Positions 2,793 through 12,559 of a stretch of DNA of 59,313 bases are shown here, piece by piece. The position numbers were made by a program, and so were the translations under genes. The DNA is from an uncultured Bacteroidales bacterium. GTDB lineage: Bacteria > Bacteroidota > Bacteroidia > Bacteroidales > P3. Location of the stretch: contig ONQD01000023.1 in NCBI GenBank assembly GCA_900319865.1, positions 1-59,313 on the forward strand. The letters run 5' to 3'. The notes under the pieces were generated by a model, which saw only the letters and a list, made by a program, of their open reading frames with translations, made no database searches and was not told the DNA's origin. How positions within the stretch are numbered: position 1 is the first letter of the stretch; each line of letters begins with the position of its first letter.

Positions 2793-5700
2793 ATGGCAAA
2801 AATAATCGGACTTGACTTGGGTACCAACAGCATTGGTTGGGCAGTTATCGACAATGAAAAGCAGATAATCGAATCTGCCGGATCTCGCATAATCCCCATG
2901 GATGCAGCACGTTTGGGTGACTTCGAAAAAGGCAACCCCGTTTCGTATACCAGTAAAAGAACTCAATACAGGGGAATGAGGAGACTGCGTGAACGCTTTT
3001 TATTGCGGCGCGAAAGGTTGCTGAGAATACTGAATATTTTAGGTTTCTTGCCCGAACATTTTGCCTCAACAGTATCAAGATACGGCAAAATAGTTTCGGA
3101 CGATGAACCAAAACTGGCTTGGAAAGAAGGAACTGAAGGTAAGAAAAAATTCTTGTTCCAATCGTCGTTCAATGAAATGGTGTCTGACTTCGTGAGAAAC
3201 GGGGTAGACCAGAAGATTCCTTACGACTGGACCATATACTATCTTCGCCAGAAAGCGCTAACTCAACCCATAAGCAAAGAAGAGCTGGCTTGGATACTGT
3301 TGCAATTCAACCAAAAGCGAGGTTACTACCAATTGCGGGGTAAAGCGGATGAAGGTTTGGATTCCACCGAGAACCAAAAAGAGGAGAAGTCATACCATGA
3401 GCTACAAATAGTAAAAGTAGAAAACACTGGTGAGAAGGATAAGAAAGGGGGAATATGGTACAATATCACACTTGAAAATGGATGGATTTACAGAAGGGCA
3501 TTCAAGATAGCACCCGATTGGGAAGGCAAGACCCGGGGATTCATAGCCACATTCAAATTGGACAAGAATGGCAAACACAAAACAGACACACCCTCCATCA
3601 GTTCGCCCAGTGAAGACGATTGGGGGCTGAGAAAAATAAAAACAGAGAACGATATAAAGCAATCTGGTTCTACAGTAGGGGCATATATTTACCAAAGTCT
3701 ACTGCGGCATCCCGACAGAAAAATAATAGGAGATTTGGTACAGACCATTGACCGAGAGCTATATGTTGATGAATTATGCCGGATTTTGGACAAACAGATA
3801 CAATACATTCCTGAACTGAACGACCAAGAGCTATATAACCGTTGTATCGCTGAACTCTATCCTTCCAATCATTCTTACCGTAAAAGCATAGCTCATCGCG
3901 GCTTCAAATATCTATTTATAGACAATATACTTTTCTATCAACGACCGCTGAAAAGCAAACGGGGGCTGATTGACGATTGCCCATTTGAAGAGAGAAACGG
4001 AAAAGCAATCAAATGTATTGCAAAATCACATCCGCTGTATCAAGAATTCCGTATATGGCAATTCGTGACCAATTTGAGAATTTACCAAAATGACGAAGAT
4101 ATCACAGCCACCCTGCTGCCCGATGCTGAGGCATACGCAAACCTATATCAATACCTCTCAACGCAAAAGGAGGTTGACCAATCGGAGATACTACATTATT
4201 TCAAAATCGGCAAAAAAGAGCTGCCTTCCTACCGCTGGAATTATGTGGAAGACAGGAAATATCCTGTTGGCGAAACCCGTGCCATCCTGTTGGGCGGATT
4301 ACACAAGGCTGGCATTGCTGAAGATTTTCTGACACAAGAGAAAGAACTGCAGCTATGGCATATCCTCTACTCGGTTGATGACCAGAAGCAATATCGCAAA
4401 GCATTGAGAACCTATGCCCACCGCCAGAGTTGGGACGCGGAAAAGACAGAAGCCTTTGCCCAAGCATTCGACAAACTTACTATTTATAAAGAAAAAGACT
4501 ATGGGTCCTATTCGGCAAAGGCAATAGGCCGACTGCTACCACTGATGCGGCAAGGCCGGTATTGGAAAGCGGACAATATTGATATGAAAACCCGCAATCG
4601 TATAGAACACATTGTCACCGGTGAGGAAGACGAAACCATTAAAGCCTCGTTGCGGGAACGCTTCAACTACATTAACAATATCGATCAATGCCAAGGAATG
4701 AACACATGGCAAGCATGCTATTTGGTATATGGCAGACACTCTGAAGCCATAGACGCACAAAAATGGAACACTCCTGAGGACATAAACAAGTATCTATCAC
4801 ATTTCCGCCACAACTCATTGAACAATCCGGTAGTTGAACAGGTAGTAACAGAGAGTCTTCGCGTTGTGCACGATATTTGGGAACAAACAGGTCATATTGA
4901 CGAAATACACATTGAGTTGGGCCGTGAATTGAAGAAAACCAAAAACGAGCGAGAACATATTGCTAAAGTTATTGCCGAGGGCGAAGCCACAAATCAGCGT
5001 ATACGACTACTGCTCAACGAGCTGATAAACCCCGAATATGAAATAGAAAAAGTACGTCCATTTTCCCCATCGCAGCAGGAACTATTAAAAATATACGAGG
5101 ACGGGGTCTTCAATAGCAATATAGAGATTCCCGACGACATTCGGGATATCCAAAAACGCTTTACTGCGATAAAAGACCAACCCACTGCAGCAGAAATAAA
5201 AAGATATAAGTTATGGCTTGACCAAAAATACATATCTCCATATACTGGAAAGCCAATCCCATTAGCCAAACTGTTCACCCCTGCCTATGAGATAGAACAC
5301 GTTATACCACAAAGTCTTTGGTTCGATGATTCCATGTCGAACAAAGTTATTTGTGAAGCTGAGGTCAACAGAATGAAAGGAAAAGAATTAGGGCATGAAT
5401 TCATTGCCAATCATCATGGCGAAAAAGTTCATCTGACACTTGGAGGAGATGTGGAAATATTATCATTGGAGGCATATGAGAGACATGTAAAGACAACTTT
5501 TGCAAGCAAGAAGAAACGTGAAATACTCATGATGGATGAAATACCTGATGATTTCACATCCAGACAGATGAACGACAGCCGTTATATAAGTCGGCTGATG
5601 ATGCATCTACTGTCAAACATTGTGCGTACTGAAGATGAAAAAGGGAACCTTGAAGAGAGTACCACTTCCAAAAACGTCATTCCGTGTAACGGATCCATTA

Positions 5701-7256
5701 CCGACAGGCTGAAAAAAGACTGGGGAATAAACGATGTGTGGAACCGGATTGTGCTACCCCGATTTGAACGGTTGAACACAATAACCGGCACAAGGGATTA
5801 CACCACCCGAACCGAAAACAACAACACCATTCCTTCTGTACCTCTCAGCATGCGTCAAGGATTTAACAAAAAGCGCATAGACCACCGACATCATGCAATG
5901 GATGCCATAGTCATAGCGTGTACTACCCGCGACCATATAAACTTGCTCAATAACGAAGCGGCCAAAAGCAAAAACCGTTATGACTTACAAAACAAACTGA
6001 GGACAATAGAATACCATAATGACAAGAACGGCCAACAACAACCCCATTTTGGCGATTTCAAAAAGCCTTGGCCTACATTCACCGAAGAGGTGTACCGGAC
6101 ACTTGAAAGGATTATTGTCAGTTTCAAGCATCAACAACGCGTCATCAACAAAACTTCCAACTTCTATAAAGTAATACATGAAGGAAAACATATTGCCATA
6201 AAACAAACGAGAGGTGACAGTTGGGCAATACGGGAACCCCTTCACAAAGAAACAGTATTTGGAGAGGTAAACCTGCAATTGAAGAAAAGAATAAGGATTA
6301 AGGATGCTATCGCCAATCCAAACAGCATAGTCAACCGAGAGTTGAAAGAGAAAATAAAGAATTTCAAATCACTTCATCACACCGAAAAACAAATCATAAA
6401 ATACTTTGACGACAATAAGGACATCTGGAGTGAGACTGCTGACGGGAAGGTTGAAGTGTACTATTACACCAAGGACACAAAAGAACGGTATTACGCCACC
6501 CGCAAGGACTTGATAGATATAATGAAAGATGACACAACCATTGCTGCTGCCCAAAAGACCATAGACAGCATTACCGATAGTGGTATCCGTTCTATATTAC
6601 AGGCACATCTGGCGGCCGAAGGGAATAATGCAGCAGAAGCTTTCTCTGCCGACGGGATTGAGAGGATGAACCGAAATATAATGGCTTTGAACGGAGGCCA
6701 TAAACATCAACCCATAAAAAAGGTCAGAGTATATGAGCAAGCCAACAAATACAGCATTGGAAACACGGGGCAAAAAGCCACAAAATTTGTTGAGGCGGCT
6801 AAAGGTACTAACCTTTTCTTTGTGATATACAAGAACAAAAAAGGTACTCGAGGGTTTGCCACAATTCCACTTAATATAGTAATTGAGCTACAAAAGAAAT
6901 ACGAAAAGAAATGGAAAGAGCATCTTTCCGATAGATTACAACAAGACGACCTCATGTTGATGCCGACCGATGCTGATATTCTCTACATACTATCGCCCAA
7001 CGATTTGGTGTATGTTCCGTTGGAAGATGAACGCGTAGATATCGACCATATTGACCCCAAAAGAATATATAAATGCATTTCTTTCACGGGAAGACAATGT
7101 CTCTTTTTGCCCTATTCCACTGCATCCGTAATTCTACAAAAAGTAGAGTTTGAAGCACTAAACAAGATGGAACGGGCCATCACTGGAGAGATGATTAAAG
7201 AAATTTGCATCCCTGTGACCGTAGACCGTTTAGGAAATGTAAAACAAATAGGATAA
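2793..7256 (+). CDS. cas9: CRISPR-associated endonuclease Cas9, type II-C
   Basis: 1487-residue RNA-guided DNA endonuclease, the effector of this locus. RuvC-I is at the extreme N-terminus (IGLDLGTNSIGWAVID, Asp8). The arginine-rich bridge helix spans about 55-84. RuvC-II carries IHIELGRELKK with Glu708. The HNH domain has YEIEHVIPQS with catalytic His836 and the downstream asparagine of MSNK. RuvC-III has DHRHHAMDA (residues 1030-1038). All catalytic positions are present. The C-terminal about 400 residues would hold the tracrRNA-binding and PAM-reading parts. It is long for type II-C in general but in the range known for Bacteroidota. The gene looks more AT-rich than cas1/cas2 and the flanks. 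It is separated from cas1 by two bases and with cas1 and cas2 forms one operon without csn2 or cas4, hence II-C. Confidence 0.98.
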   Translation: MAKIIGLDLGTNSIGWAVIDNEKQIIESAGSRIIPMDAARLGDFEKGNPVSYTSKRTQYRGMRRLRERFLLRRERLLRILNILGFLPEHFASTVSRYGKIVSDDEPKLAWKEGTEGKKKFLFQSSFNEMVSDFVRNGVDQKIPYDWTIYYLRQKALTQPISKEELAWILLQFNQKRGYYQLRGKADEGLDSTENQKEEKSYHELQIVKVENTGEKDKKGGIWYNITLENGWIYRRAFKIAPDWEGKTRGFIATFKLDKNGKHKTDTPSISSPSEDDWGLRKIKTENDIKQSGSTVGAYIYQSLLRHPDRKIIGDLVQTIDRELYVDELCRILDKQIQYIPELNDQELYNRCIAELYPSNHSYRKSIAHRGFKYLFIDNILFYQRPLKSKRGLIDDCPFEERNGKAIKCIAKSHPLYQEFRIWQFVTNLRIYQNDEDITATLLPDAEAYANLYQYLSTQKEVDQSEILHYFKIGKKELPSYRWNYVEDRKYPVGETRAILLGGLHKAGIAEDFLTQEKELQLWHILYSVDDQKQYRKALRTYAHRQSWDAEKTEAFAQAFDKLTIYKEKDYGSYSAKAIGRLLPLMRQGRYWKADNIDMKTRNRIEHIVTGEEDETIKASLRERFNYINNIDQCQGMNTWQACYLVYGRHSEAIDAQKWNTPEDINKYLSHFRHNSLNNPVVEQVVTESLRVVHDIWEQTGHIDEIHIELGRELKKTKNEREHIAKVIAEGEATNQRIRLLLNELINPEYEIEKVRPFSPSQQELLKIYEDGVFNSNIEIPDDIRDIQKRFTAIKDQPTAAEIKRYKLWLDQKYISPYTGKPIPLAKLFTPAYEIEHVIPQSLWFDDSMSNKVICEAEVNRMKGKELGHEFIANHHGEKVHLTLGGDVEILSLEAYERHVKTTFASKKKREILMMDEIPDDFTSRQMNDSRYISRLMMHLLSNIVRTEDEKGNLEESTTSKNVIPCNGSITDRLKKDWGINDVWNRIVLPRFERLNTITGTRDYTTRTENNNTIPSVPLSMRQGFNKKRIDHRHHAMDAIVIACTTRDHINLLNNEAAKSKNRYDLQNKLRTIEYHNDKNGQQQPHFGDFKKPWPTFTEEVYRTLERIIVSFKHQQRVINKTSNFYKVIHEGKHIAIKQTRGDSWAIREPLHKETVFGEVNLQLKKRIRIKDAIANPNSIVNRELKEKIKNFKSLHHTEKQIIKYFDDNKDIWSETADGKVEVYYYTKDTKERYYATRKDLIDIMKDDTTIAAAQKTIDSITDSGIRSILQAHLAAEGNNAAEAFSADGIERMNRNIMALNGGHKHQPIKKVRVYEQANKYSIGNTGQKATKFVEAAKGTNLFFVIYKNKKGTRGFATIPLNIVIELQKKYEKKWKEHLSDRLQQDDLMLMPTDADILYILSPNDLVYVPLEDERVDIDHIDPKRIYKCISFTGRQCLFLPYSTASVILQKVEFEALNKMERAITGEMIKEICIPVTVDRLGNVKQIG

Positions 7257-7258
7257 AC

Positions 7259-8170
7259 ATGATAAAAAAGACGCTCTGTTTCTCCAACCCAGCCTATCTG
7301 TCGATGAAGAACGGGCAGCTGGTGGTGCGACTTGAACGGCAAGGCGACATGCCAGAACGGCAAACCACTATTCCCATCGAGGATATCGGCATGGTGGTGA
7401 TAGACTGCCAACAAATCACACTTACCCACGGCTTGATGGCCGCACTGCTTGACAACAATGCTTCTGTCATCACATGCAATGTACGCCACATGCCTGTGGG
7501 GTTAATGCTGCCCCTGGAAGGCCACACAGTGCAGAGCGAGCGTTTTCAAGACCAGCTATCGGCATCGTTACCACTACGCAAACAGCTGTGGCAACAAACA
7601 GTGCAACAGAAGATACTGAATCAGGCTGCAGTGCTACGGGAAATGCGTCATGCCGAGACAGGCAATATGCAGCAATGGGCCACAGCGGTGAAGTCGGGCG
7701 ACAGTAGCAATCTTGAGGGGCGTGCAGCTGCCTACTACTGGAGTCAGATGTTTCCAGACAACGAAGAAACCTTTACACGCGACCGGGAAGGTGTATACCC
7801 CAACAGCCTTTTCAATTATGGCTATGCGGTGTTGCGGGCAGTGATAGCGCGGGCGCTGGTGAGCAGCGGGCTGCTTCCAACCCTGGGCATACACCACCAC
7901 AACCGATATAACGCCTATTGCCTGGCCGACGACATTATGGAGCCCTACCGCCCGTATGTGGACAAGCTCGTGGTGCAAACCATTGAAAGATATCCAAACA
8001 ACGACGAAATCACTACCGACATAAAACGCTCCCTACTCACAATACCCACACTCGAAGTGCATATCAATGGCCAGCGAAGCCCGCTCATGGTGGCGGCAAG
8101 CCAGACCACAGCCTCGCTGGCACGCTGCTTTGCCGGGGAAGCGCGCAAAATAACGTATCCAGAGATGTGA
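7259..8170 (+). CDS. cas1: CRISPR-associated endonuclease/integrase Cas1
   Basis: 303-residue Cas1, which with Cas2 inserts new spacers at the leader end of the array. The metal-binding triad is visible: Glu153 in SSNLEGRAAAYYW, a histidine in GIHHHNRYN (about 212-213), and the acidic pair in LADDIMEPYRP (about 224-225). The frame is open to 7205 inside cas9, but the ATG at 7259, two bases after the cas9 stop, begins the typical type II sequence MIKKTLCFSNPAYLS. The stop overlaps the cas2 start. Confidence 0.97.
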   Translation: MIKKTLCFSNPAYLSMKNGQLVVRLERQGDMPERQTTIPIEDIGMVVIDCQQITLTHGLMAALLDNNASVITCNVRHMPVGLMLPLEGHTVQSERFQDQLSASLPLRKQLWQQTVQQKILNQAAVLREMRHAETGNMQQWATAVKSGDSSNLEGRAAAYYWSQMFPDNEETFTRDREGVYPNSLFNYGYAVLRAVIARALVSSGLLPTLGIHHHNRYNAYCLADDIMEPYRPYVDKLVVQTIERYPNNDEITTDIKRSLLTIPTLEVHINGQRSPLMVAASQTTASLARCFAGEARKITYPEM

Positions 8171-8502
8171 TGGACCGCTTTAGCGAATACCGAATCATGT
8201 GGCTGCTTGTGTTCTTCGACCTGCCTACCGACACAAAGAAAGAGCGCAAGGCGGCATCTGATTTCCGGAAGCATCTGCTGGCCGACGGCTTTACTATGTT
8301 CCAGTTTTCTATCTATGTGAGACATTGTGCGAGCAGGGAGAATGCGGACGTGCACCTGAAACGTGTGCGAACCATGATTCCCCAATACGGGCAAGTAGGA
8401 TGCCTCACCATCACCGACAAGCAGTTTGCCGACATCGAATTATATAACTGTCAGAAAGAGGTAGCACCTAACGCACCAGGACAACAATTGGAGTTATTTT
8501 AA
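8170..8502 (+). CDS. cas2: CRISPR-associated protein Cas2
   Basis: 110-residue partner of Cas1 in spacer acquisition. It shows the beta1 signature MWLLVFFDLPTDTKKERK and the type II Cas2 segment GFTMFQFSIYVRHC. The ATG at 8170 overlaps the cas1 TGA by one base (TGATG), indicating translational coupling; a GTG at 8167 would add one residue. It is the last gene of the cas operon, 33 bases before a strong hairpin terminator. Confidence 0.96.
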   Translation: MDRFSEYRIMWLLVFFDLPTDTKKERKAASDFRKHLLADGFTMFQFSIYVRHCASRENADVHLKRVRTMIPQYGQVGCLTITDKQFADIELYNCQKEVAPNAPGQQLELF

Positions 8503-8535: not shown

Positions 8536-8568
8536 AAAAAATCCCGCCCAAAAGAGCGGGATTTTTTT
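8536..8568. terminator. Bidirectional terminator between cas2 and the CRISPR array
   Basis: Near-perfect stem AATCCCGC / GCGGGATT with loop CCAAAAGA, a run of A before and seven T after. It can end the cas operon on the + strand and leftward CRISPR transcripts on the minus strand. Confidence 0.85.
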
Positions 8569-8619
8569 AGTTCATGACACGTTTTGAAACATTGTATTCC
8601 ATATAGTTACTGACATCGT
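8569..8619. other. Putative CRISPR leader
   Basis: 51-base AT-rich stretch directly abutting the most intact end of the array and next to cas2. Repeats here are identical while the opposite end is degenerate, so this is the likely site of new spacer insertion. No promoter box reading into the array is evident in it. Confidence 0.5.
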
Positions 8620-10952
8620 AATGTCAAAGAACTAATATCGAACTAACTTTTTAAGCAATTCACAACTCCTTGGCGACAAAAACTTCCAAGTGCCACAATG
8701 TCAAAGAACTAATATCGAACTAACTTTTTAAGCAATTCACAACGCTTTCAAGGTTACTAATTAATGTAAGAAAATGTCAAAGAACTAATATCGAACTAAC
8801 TTTTTAAGCAATTCACAACACAGCCCGGTTTTCGCGTTTTTGCGCCCAAAATGTCAAAGAACTAATATCGAACTAACTTTTTAAGCAATTCACAACATGA
8901 GTTACTATTTTTATTCTTTTAAAAAAATGTCAAAGAACTAATATCGAACTAACTTTTTAAGCAATTCACAACTGTTTCTGTTTCTATTAGTTTCATAGGT
9001 TTAATGTCAAAGAACTAATATCGAACTAACTTTTTAAGCAATTCACAACCAATTATGTACTTCATTGTAATGTTTATTTAATGTCAAAGAACTAATATCG
9101 AACTAACTTTTTAAGCAATTCACAACGTGTTTTCGGTTGATATTCCGTCATTGACAAATGTCAAAGAACTAATATCGAACTAACTTTTTAAGCAATTCAC
9201 AACCCAACCGGGTTGGAGTATACACCCCGGTATAATGTCAAAGAACTAATATCGAACTAACTTTTTAAGCAATTCACAACGAAGACACCAGCAACAATGT
9301 CTATGAGATAATGTCAAAGAACTAATATCGAACTAACTTTTTAAGCAATTCACAACTATTTGACCACATTATATAACTTTGATTTAATGTCAAAGAACTA
9401 ATATCGAACTAACTTTTTAAGCAATTCACAACGGGAATGTGTGTCAAGGCCCAACTTTTGAAATGTCAAAGAACTAATATCGAACTAACTTTTTAAGCAA
9501 TTCACAACATCGCAAGGGTCTCCATTCACCTTGTTAAAATGTCAAAGAACTAATATCGAACTAACTTTTTAAGCAATTCACAACAGGCTCTCAATTTCAC
9601 CACGCACACGCACTAATGTCAAAGAACTAATATCGAACTAACTTTTTAAGCAATTCACAACACATGTGGCTCCACATGAACTTTCCCCAACAATGTCAAA
9701 GAACTAATATCGAACTAACTTTTTAAGCAATTCACAACCTAACTGCATTACGTATATCGTTTTCGGTTAATGTCAAAGAACTAATATCGAACTAACTTTT
9801 TAAGCAATTCACAACGGTATCGAGTTCAACCTTGAACCCCTGCATAATGTCAAAGAACTAATATCGAACTAACTTTTTAAGCAATTCACAACGGTACGAC
9901 TGCGACACATACACGGCGCGCAAATGTCAAAGAACTAATATCGAACTAACTTTTTAAGCAATTCACAACCCCCATCGGACAACACAAACCTCGCCGACTA
10001 ATGTCAAAGAACTAATATCGAACTAACTTTTTAAGCAATTCACAACACCAACTTACTGTTGCTATTCACTGCCATTAATGTCAAAGAACTAATATCGAAC
10101 TAACTTTTTAAGCAATTCACAACAGAGGCTGGTTTGTAGTTTCAAGTCCGCATAATGTCAAAGAACTAATATCGAACTAACTTTTTAAGCAATTCACAAC
10201 TGCTGTCGGCGGTGGGGTTGTATCGGTTGAATGTCAAAGAACTAATATCGAACTAACTTTTTAAGCAATTCACAACAGCAGTCGATGAACGTTCCCGGCT
10301 CAGCAAATGTCAAAGAACTAATATCGAACTAACTTTTTAAGCAATTCACAACACACAATGGGGTCTGACTTATGGCTCTCAAAATGTCAAAGAACTAATA
10401 TCGAACTAACTTTTTAAGCAATTCACAACATAAAGTCATTCACAAAGTCGGTGGTGGAAATGTCAAAGAACTAATATCGAAAGCAATTCACAACAGAGAA
10501 CACATTTTACGTCAGCGAAGATTGAATGTCAAAGAACTAATATCGAACTAACTTTTTAAGCAATTCACAACCGTATGAGTCTGGCGGTTACTATGCGTCA
10601 AAATGTCAAAGAACTAATATCGAACTAACTTTTTAAGCAATTCACAGCGCCGGTGCTAGTGCTGCCGGTTCCGCCATAAATGTCAAAGAACTAATATCGA
10701 ATGAACTTTTTAAGCAATTCACAGCCGCCTTCGGCGTATACCTTGCTGCACCGAGATGTCAAAGAACTAATATCGAATGAACTTTTTAAGCAATTCACAG
10801 CACAGCCAGAATGGTTGTTGGGTCGAGCTGAATGTCAAAGAACTAATATCGAACTAACTTTTTAAGCAATTCACAGCCTATTAAGCGGAACCGACACCAT
10901 TCATTGAATGTCAAAGAACTAATATCGAATGAACTTTTTAGCAATTCAGAGT
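8620..10952 (-). CRISPR. Type II-C CRISPR array, 31 repeats and 30 spacers
   Basis: Repeats are 47 bases, spacers mostly 29-30, unit 76-77. On the + strand each repeat begins AATGTCAAAG and ends GCAATTCACAAC; read from the minus strand it begins GTTGTGAATTGC, as type II crRNA repeats do, so crRNAs are assigned to the minus strand. Repeats 1-24 are identical by eye. Repeat 25 (10459-10494) has an 11-base internal deletion. Repeat 27 (10602) onward end CACAGC; those at 10679 and 10754 have GAATGAAC for GAACTAAC; the last (10907) is the most diverged. This decay marks the right end as the old end. Confidence 0.98.
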
Positions 10953-11003
10953 GCTATCCAAAGCCAATAGATTCCGGTGCTTGTTAGAGTCGGTTTTTTA
11001 TCT

Positions 11004-11036
11004 AAAAAAAGGCGACGGAAGTTAATCGCTCCCGCC
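11004..11036 (-). terminator. tracrRNA terminator
   Basis: Minus-strand stem between GGCGGGAG and CTTCC-GTCGCC (11036 to 11011) with a small bulge, followed by TTTTTTT (11010-11004). Confidence 0.8.
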
Positions 11037-11090
11037 CCCTTGATAGTTTTCACAACGGAATAATCCTTATTGTGAATTGCTTAAAAAGCT
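11004..11090 (-). ncRNA. tracrRNA
   Basis: The minus strand carries a 19-base anti-repeat (11070-11088, CTTTTTAAGCAATTCACAA) complementary to the start of the crRNA repeat. It is followed by a short GGATTATTCC hairpin, TTGTGAAAAC, then a G/C-rich interrupted stem (11011-11036, GGCGGGAG...CCGTCGCC) and seven T. This is the order expected of a II-C tracrRNA: anti-repeat, nexus-like hairpin, terminator. About 87 bases. A full promoter places the start at or just before the anti-repeat. Ends are inferred, not mapped. Confidence 0.92.
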
Positions 11091-11094
11091 GTTG

Positions 11095-11126
11095 CAAAAA
11101 TACAACAAATTTTTCAATTGAGCAAA
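11095..11126 (-). promoter_or_regulatory. tracrRNA promoter
   Basis: Minus strand: TTTG (11126-11123), 20-base spacer, TATTTTTG (11102-11095). Both boxes match the Bacteroidota consensus TTTG-N19-20-TAnnTTTG exactly and predict a start near 11088-11090, at the anti-repeat. Confidence 0.85.
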
Positions 11127-11158: not shown

Positions 11159-12559
11159 TTACAGTTCTACTTCTTGGCGGAATTCGGGGATTTCGATGTT
11201 GCGCCAGCCGGCTTTGAGGAGGGTGTCGCGGAAGTTGAGCTGGGTTTGCTCTTCGCCGTGGACCAGGAAGAGGGTCTTCACTTTGCGTTTGTTTTGGCAG
11301 TCGATGTATTTCATCATTTCTTTGTAGTCGCCGTGACCGGAGAGAGATTCGATGCGGCGCAGTTCGGCTCTGACCTCATGGGGATGGCCAAAGATGGACA
11401 CTTCCTTGTCGCCGCGCATGATTTTGGCCCCAAGGGTTTTGGGTTCGCAGTAGCCGACACAGAGAATGGTGGTGGAGGGGTCTTCGATGTGGTTGGCGAG
11501 ATGGTGTTTGACTCGGCCGGCCTCCATCATGCCCGAGGCGGAGATGATGACACAGGGTTTGTGGCGTAGGTTGAGTTCCTTGGAGGCCTCGACGGACTGT
11601 ATGTACTGCAGGCGGTCGAATCCGAAGGGGTCGGGGTCTTTCTTCATGTAGTCGAGAATGGGCTGGCCGAAGCATTCGGTGTGGAGGCGCATGATGTTGG
11701 TGGCGGAGATGCTGAGAGGGCTGTCGACAAAGACATCGATGTCGGGCAGGAGTTCGGCATGCTCGAGGCGGTCGAGGGCATAGATGATTTCCTGTGCGCG
11801 GCCGACGGCGAAGGAGGGGATGATGAGTTTGCCTTTCTTCTTGGTGCAGGTGTCGAGCACGGCCATGAGGAGTTCCTGCTCGGCATCCTTGAGGGTGTCG
11901 TGGATGCGGTCGCCATAGGTGGATTCCATGATGAGGTAGTCGACCTGCGGGAAGGGTTCGGGGTCTTTGAGGATGTGTTTGCTGTATCGGCCTATGTCGC
12001 CGGTGTAGCCCAGCTTGATGATGCGGCGGCCGTCGCGTATTTTGAGGTACACACAGCTGCTGCCCAGGATGTGGCCGGCATCGTAGAACTCGACAGTCAC
12101 TTCGCCCTCGATGTTGAAGGGTTTGTGGTAGGGGACACTGATGAAACAGTGCATACACTCCTGTGCCTCTTTCTCGGTGTAGATGGGTTCGACGGGGTCT
12201 TTATGTTGCTCCTTGAGTTTTTTGTTGAAGGTGTGGACATCGGCCTCCTGTATGCGGCCTGCATCGGCCAGCATGATGGCGCAGAGGTCGCGGGTGGCGG
12301 GGGTGCAGAGGACGGTGCCGCGGAATCCCAGCTTGTAGATGTAGGGGATGAGACCGGAGTGGTCGATATGGGCGTGGGAGAGGATGAGGTAATCGATTTC
12401 GGTGGGGTCGAAACCAAGGTCGCGGTTCATGGCGTCGGTTTCGAGGCCTTTGCCTTGATACATTCCACAGTCGAGCAGGATTTTCAAGCCCTTCTTGGTG
12501 GTGATGAGGTGTTTGCTGCCAGTCACTTCGCGGGCAGCACCCATAAATTGCAGTTTCAT
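11159..12559 (-). CDS. MBL-fold beta-CASP ribonuclease-like protein
   Basis: 466 residues. The metallo-beta-lactamase motif HAHIDH (62-67) lies in ILSHAHIDHSGLIPY. Further metal-ligand segments are DAGHILGSS and YTGDIGR, and the beta-CASP region contains MESTYGDR, IPSFAVGRAQEI, SASGMMEAGRV and a C-terminal SLSGHGD. Proteins of this YsdC/CPSF73-like group are zinc-dependent RNA-processing nucleases; the substrate here is unknown. Length fits the family. It is monocistronic, starts at the ATG at 12559, and converges on the CRISPR array, ending 33 bases from the tracrRNA promoter. Confidence 0.92.
   Translation of the reverse strand: MKLQFMGAAREVTGSKHLITTKKGLKILLDCGMYQGKGLETDAMNRDLGFDPTEIDYLILSHAHIDHSGLIPYIYKLGFRGTVLCTPATRDLCAIMLADAGRIQEADVHTFNKKLKEQHKDPVEPIYTEKEAQECMHCFISVPYHKPFNIEGEVTVEFYDAGHILGSSCVYLKIRDGRRIIKLGYTGDIGRYSKHILKDPEPFPQVDYLIMESTYGDRIHDTLKDAEQELLMAVLDTCTKKKGKLIIPSFAVGRAQEIIYALDRLEHAELLPDIDVFVDSPLSISATNIMRLHTECFGQPILDYMKKDPDPFGFDRLQYIQSVEASKELNLRHKPCVIISASGMMEAGRVKHHLANHIEDPSTTILCVGYCEPKTLGAKIMRGDKEVSIFGHPHEVRAELRRIESLSGHGDYKEMMKYIDCQNKRKVKTLFLVHGEEQTQLNFRDTLLKAGWRNIEIPEFRQEVEL

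Follow-up and report, generated by a model that had tools for sequence, protein, structure and literature searches.

Polarity of a type II-C CRISPR array from an uncultured Bacteroidales bacterium and absence of the canonical promoter from its repeats

By the usual account, each repeat of a type II-C CRISPR array has its own promoter, and it is together with such a promoter that the reversed order of these arrays is usually described. In other CRISPR subtypes, promoters are carried by the leaders. The repeat promoters of Neisseria and Campylobacter are of the proteobacterial kind, and in this they differ from the window (the whole stretch of 59,313 nucleotides of DNA which was analysed here). 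In the literature, II-C spacers are stated to be added at the last repeat, mutations are reported in 60% of the oldest, extra repeats, and terminators and guide hairpins are described upstream of the arrays (PMC12080349). II-C arrays lie opposite to the cas genes as a rule (PMC6737040), II-C transcripts of F. columnare were reported to run toward the leader on the basis of eight reads (PMC8092290), and spacer insertion on the cas2 side was shown experimentally in Riemerella (PMC6008519). This reversed acquisition and reading is what makes II-C peculiar according to PMC12638026, which adds that orientation tools disagree on II-C and that subgroups with different acquisition ends may exist.

The II-C CRISPR1 locus of Riemerella anatipestifer resembles that of the window in its cas9-cas1-cas2-array order, its 47-bp repeats and 30-bp spacers, and in the A/T-rich leader which separates cas2 from the array and at which new spacers go in; its tracrRNA is located upstream of cas9, however, while that of the window is found at the distal end of the array (PMC6008519). 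The II-C arrays of Flavobacterium columnare and F. psychrophilum are, like the one described here, reportedly read toward the variable leader end, but their repeats are 36 and 46 nt long and were assigned a putative promoter by the authors from a TTG motif (PMC8092290, PMC10309648). Neisseria and Campylobacter share with the window the entry of spacers at the last repeat and an array opposite to cas (PMC12080349). Finally, Bacteroides-type II-C loci, such as that of B. faecis (L087), have the same polarity, a 47-nt repeat and the same tracrRNA nexus, but the L087-type repeat carries a full TTG-N19-TATCTTTG promoter, which is missing from the repeat of the window.

Table 1. Features of the CRISPR-Cas9 locus in the window.
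Feature	Position	Strand	Basis and remarks
cas9, 1487 aa	2793..7256	+	TIGR01865, 424.7 bits (cut-off 100); ORF
cas1 (type II)	7259..8170	+	TIGR03639, 317.7 bits (cut-off 120)
cas2, start GTG 8167 or ATG 8170	8167..8502	+	TIGR01573, 72.2 bits (cut-off 24.5)
Likely two-way terminator in the cas2/leader interval	8536..8568		G+C hairpin flanked by A and T runs
Leader, 51 nt, at the crRNA-strand 3' end; starts ACGAT beside the last repeat	8569..8619	-	ACGAT conservation
CRISPR array, 31 repeats and 30 spacers	8620..10952	-	crRNA-sense repeat GTTGTGAATTGCTTAAAAAGTTAGTTCGATATTAGTTCTTTGACATT; new end left, old end right
Spacer 7 from the new end	9127..9156	-	IMG/VR scan; perfect 30-nt match to an IMG/VR record
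Five degenerate old repeats	10602..10952	-	Repeat comparison
Stretch from tracrRNA terminator to array	10953..11003	-	TAnnTTTG box absent
tracrRNA, 5' end inferred	11004..11092	-	Anti-repeat, nexus, terminator
tracrRNA promoter TTG-N20-TATTTTTG, Bacteroidetes-type; possible sole promoter of the array	11095..11125	-	Sequence

Cas9, type II Cas1 and Cas2 all score above their NCBIfam cut-offs in profile searches (Table 1), with their genes spanning 2793-8502 on the plus strand. The ORF list leaves no space in this interval for another gene, e.g. csn2 or cas4, and at this locus cas9, cas1 and cas2 are the sole cas genes, as in type II-C. Among the best 80 of 469 Cas9 relatives, the named ones with at least 60% identity come from uncultured Bacteroidales or Bacteroidetes genomes, and the titles of two of these 80 (L052 and L059) name rumen samples. 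Rfam gave 12 matches, all of them under the gathering scores and near the cas2-side terminator, with no tracrRNA family among them. The tracrRNA gene is adjoined by a gene for an RNase of the beta-CASP metallo-beta-lactamase fold (11159-12559, minus strand), which scored 427.6 with the type VII Cas14 model; as this is below the cut-off of 800, it is most likely an ordinary RNase. The array itself has a repeat unit of 47 nt and spacers of 30 nt (19 of them) or 29 nt (11), and its right end was placed at 10950 by script and at 10952 by eye. All 31 occurrences of a 23-base piece of the repeat in the 84-contig assembly, allowing at most one mismatch, fall within this array.

The tracrRNA of the window contains an exact 19-nt anti-repeat (11070-11088), the nexus TAAGGATTATTCCGTTGTGA, a promoter and a terminator at about 11004-11036, in which a G+C hairpin (about 11011-11036) is followed by a T7 tract (11004-11010). 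Since this tracrRNA can pair with the minus-strand repeat only, the crRNA strand should be minus, and the array would be transcribed opposite to the cas genes. For comparison, we assembled 89 distinct oriented arrays, namely that of the window and those of its relatives. A non-CRISPR tandem repeat in L099, 4 duplicate arrays, further copies skipped by the finder and loci without an array were removed before counting, and L030, L040 and L041 were excluded because fewer than four units were walked or the array was lost by a second finder. The anti-repeat is complementary to the GTTGTG strand of the repeat in all 75 arrays with a nexus (14 of the 89 had none in the available sequence), and the stretches upstream of the tracrRNA of relatives carry TAnnTTTG in 90 of 93 cases, the TTG spacing being mostly 19 or 20. 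One could imagine that the array is read from its leader on the plus strand, as is usual in other subtypes, but the resulting crRNA could not pair with the tracrRNA and a likely terminator precedes the leader; we found no support for such a reading and consider it highly improbable.

Two curiosities were met among the relatives. At 9261-9570 of L036 there is a minimal unit consisting of a tracrRNA, one spacer flanked by two repeats, a leader and a terminator, and in the corresponding genome (G092) only a cas9 tail with a stop was matched. Spacer 16 from the old end of L138 resembles a tracrRNA promoter of the clade (7 mismatches in 30 to that of L036), a likeness due to chance or to the spacer being self-derived.

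The old end of the array is marked by wear of its repeats. Counting from the left, no differences are seen among the first 24 repeats; the 25th lacks 11 nt of its interior, the 26th is intact again, and the final five bear 1, 3, 4, 1 and 6 changes, respectively. The last, “extra” repeat (10907-10952) differs at 3 of its first 4 bases and in three other places. The shortened interior repeat (10459-10494) has intact neighbours, and its deletion cuts the part that pairs with tracrRNA. The same asymmetry is seen in relatives. In 65 arrays neither end is cut off by the contig (the other 24 of the 89, cut at an end, were left out); of these 65, 40 have a mutated end repeat solely on the crRNA 5' side, 1 has it solely on the 3' side and 24 have none, and the corresponding numbers for the Cas1 group of the window are 12, 0 and 6 (n=18). 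The exception is L140, an array of five repeats; two arrays cut by contig ends, L055 and L146, lean toward a mutated 3' end as well.

Flanking sequences tell a similar story. ACGAT opens the flank at the crRNA 3' (cas2-side) end in 25 of 87 arrays; the crRNA 5' (old-end) flank, compared in 67 arrays, has no common start. In L116 (15512-17742), L117 (15413-18970) and L120 (15743-17801), the segment made up of array and cas2 is inverted with respect to cas9-cas1, and still the crRNA 3' end of the array faces cas2; changed repeats occur at the far end in L116 and L120, and none is changed in L117. The leader-cas2 unit thus seems to have moved as one. Worn ends, the ACGAT flank and these inversions, taken together, argue that spacers are inserted beside cas2, at what would be the crRNA 3' end. 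It might be objected that the wear on the right is a product of recombination and that the array grows there, as the change counts are not strictly graded. However, copying of the leader-end repeat would then pass the worn form on to new units, and both the ratio of 40 to 1 among relatives and the experiment in Riemerella (PMC6008519) contradict this idea, to which we attach next to no credence. The sequence-only reading had put tracrRNA and crRNA repeat on the minus strand by the 19-base anti-repeat and terminator, the old end on the right by the degenerate repeats, and the entry of new spacers on the left, next to cas2, and on all three points it agrees with what we found in the window and its relatives.

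Several further observations concern the ends of arrays and their contents. An inverted repeat, imperfect in the window (about 8609-8626), spans the leader-repeat junction there and in L021, L024 and L046; in relatives it reads TTGACATCGT/GATGTCAA, and it is possibly an integration signal. Isolated old repeats are stranded past the old end, upstream of the arrays, in L020, L022 and probably L133. Comparison of spacers across arrays revealed no inherited spacers common to any two of them. Spacer 15 of L023 and spacer 1 of L028 (from the old end) overlap with a shift and share 20 nt, which would fit an origin from one and the same target.

As the crRNA strand is minus and the worn, right-hand end is the old one, crRNA should be read from old to new spacers, toward cas2. 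The parts, their strands and the worn end can be read off the sequence directly, and from them we infer how insertion at the leader, transcription, processing and function of this locus may proceed. Minus-strand transcription would come in from the side of the tracrRNA gene, through the oldest, degenerate repeat, and proceed toward the newest spacer and the likely two-way terminator, common to the array and the convergent cas operon, where both the cas transcript and the pre-crRNA would be stopped; in many relatives, the 3' flank of the array contains a terminator-like element similar to 8536-8568. In each repeat, the first 19-20 nt would pair with the tracrRNA. Wear of the extra repeat and a tracrRNA terminator immediately upstream would fit the published silencing of guide-less, extraneous crRNA, for which a mutated oldest repeat (here 10907-10952) and an upstream terminator (here 11004-11036) have been described (PMC12080349). 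Between terminator and array (10953-11003), a weak 5-bp hairpin covers the would-be extraneous guide in the lowest-energy fold only, being absent from the centroid.

Thus, the locus is very probably a Bacteroidales type II-C CRISPR-Cas9 locus with normal II-C polarity. The sequence-only reading was right that crRNA order runs from old to new spacers, toward the convergent cas operon, as tracrRNA strand and worn end indicate, and it set this against the usual leader-driven order, while the literature presents it as standard for II-C. Its remark that Neisseria and Campylobacter have similar II-C arrays holds in a broader sense, as the layout is treated as the II-C arrangement (PMC12080349, PMC8092290, PMC6737040). 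Because the published II-C layout is identical, the orientation is both correct and ordinary.

This orientation fixes the strands and the ages of the spacers. Scans of IMG/VR used the central 22 nt of spacers from the window and gave one match in 8 scans (spacer 7, Table 1), and the same record was matched with one mismatch by a spacer of L022. The record, L150, is 194 kb long and the two sites are G190:C1:30822-30855 and 148673-148701. Only these two of 1209 spacers match L150 at 0-1 mismatches, the next best having 6, and a reversed control gave none below 7 mismatches; the L017 array had no real match on this record. The genomes of the window and of L022, which belong to the same genus, would then share a target, and viral DNA is suggested as the source of spacers in the clade. 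The crRNA-sense 3' flanks of the two protospacers are ATAAGAACCC and ATAGTTTACT, two being too few to define a PAM from L150. Apparent protospacers in other loci were dismissed, as they had 7-11 mismatches or were old units of the arrays themselves. The whole array gave only weak or CRISPR-like matches with phages and plasmids (3 and 1 records, respectively). Against 120 genomes of the genus (E up to 10), it gave a match in each, repeat-driven ones being among the matches listed, and no strain with the repeat of the window appeared among these.

What seems less ordinary is the repeat itself. We defined the canonical repeat promoter as TTG-N17..22-TAnnTTTG in the crRNA-strand repeat; it is present in 53 of the 89 arrays and not in the window, and has the form that is also seen upstream of the related tracrRNAs. 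Its occurrence varies with Cas1 identity to the window, as it was found in 53 of 64 arrays below 70% and in 0 of 21 at 70% or above, and the four arrays without a Cas1 sequence to compare are also devoid of it. In the Cas1 tree, the window belongs to a 19-row group (100/93) in which no repeat promoter is found. L035 has the same repeat start as window-type repeats, yet it carries the promoter. Over the whole tree the label changes 7 times, at least 3 of them by well-supported branches, and the repeat promoter must therefore have been lost or gained more than once. Some modules appear to be mixed: L042 and L046 have Cas9 only about 26% identical to that of the window (best segment), together with Cas1 at 76-77% and a window-type repeat, an apparent exchange of Cas9 inside one adaptation module, and L027 is the converse, with Cas9 at 64%, Cas1 at 64% and a repeat with the promoter.

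One possible explanation is that repeat-borne promoters do exist in this clade in a shifted form, made of TTG at positions 9-11 and CTTTGACAT near the 3' end, which would start crRNA near the spacer. In fact, repeats ending in CTTTGACATC/T are present in the window and in L021-L025, L028, L046, L054, L133, L134, L137, L138 and L140, and this ending lies outside the part which pairs with tracrRNA. On the other hand, the window repeat does not outscore shuffled repeats in its best -7 match (p 0.78), only L046 in the clade reaching p 0.05; the spacing, counted manually, would be 23, compared to 19-20, and TTTG is wholly absent from the sister repeats of L017-L020, L032, L055 and L056. We thus regard a shifted promoter as conceivable, though somewhat doubtful.

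Another possibility, to which we are equally hesitant to commit ourselves, is that with the same polarity and no repeat promoter, the entire array is transcribed from a single promoter at its old end. For the window, the candidate is the tracrRNA promoter, from which transcription would read past the terminator and yield a single long pre-crRNA that ends with the newest spacer. The distribution of repeat promoters over Cas1 identity and the 19-row Cas1 group speaks in favour of this idea, as does the occurrence of TAnnTTTG on the crRNA strand up to 400 nt upstream of the old end, which was found in 22 of 30 arrays that lack a repeat promoter, against 8 of 35 that have one (Fisher 6e-5), counts that are independent of a grouping by repeat type. 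On the opposite strand the numbers are 8/30 vs 14/35 (p 0.3). Six of the 22 boxes are tracrRNA promoters (window, L017, L018, L019, L021 and L133), and when these are removed, the difference is 16/24 vs 8/35 (p 0.001). Moreover, L023, L028 and L046 have the box though their tracrRNA is upstream of cas9.

There are also arguments against an old-end promoter. The signal shrinks nearer to the array: with tree rows, it is 18/25 vs 8/35 at 400 nt (p 2e-4) and 11/25 vs 5/36 at 150 nt (p 0.016). The tree offers only 3 phylogenetically independent pairs, and the association is for this reason not significant on it. If TTG is required in addition, the crRNA strand gives 9/30 vs 3/35 and the opposite strand gives like counts, 6/30 vs 2/35, so that the stricter motif has no clear strand preference. 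The tracrRNA terminator of the window has a full T7 tract, which would have to be passed; by eye, the tracts are broken in L017, L018, L021, L022 and L036. Furthermore, Flavobacterium repeats have been credited with a promoter on TTG alone (PMC8092290, PMC10309648), and the repeat of the window also has TTG. The enrichment of old-end boxes in arrays without a repeat promoter is thus a lead, not proof.

As a tentative proposal, about which we keep considerable doubt, the repeats of this clade may have lost the Bacteroides-type promoter, and a single promoter at the oldest end may serve each array, in the window that of the tracrRNA itself, via terminator read-through. In the open-access texts consulted, we found no description of repeat-promoter loss with old-end transcription. 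If this proposal is true, tracrRNA and pre-crRNA would be transcribed together as a single unit, with the newest spacers lying at the greatest distance from the promoter, which would reverse the usual priority for fresh memories. A clade without a repeat promoter would then make it testable whether the newest spacers need strong expression.
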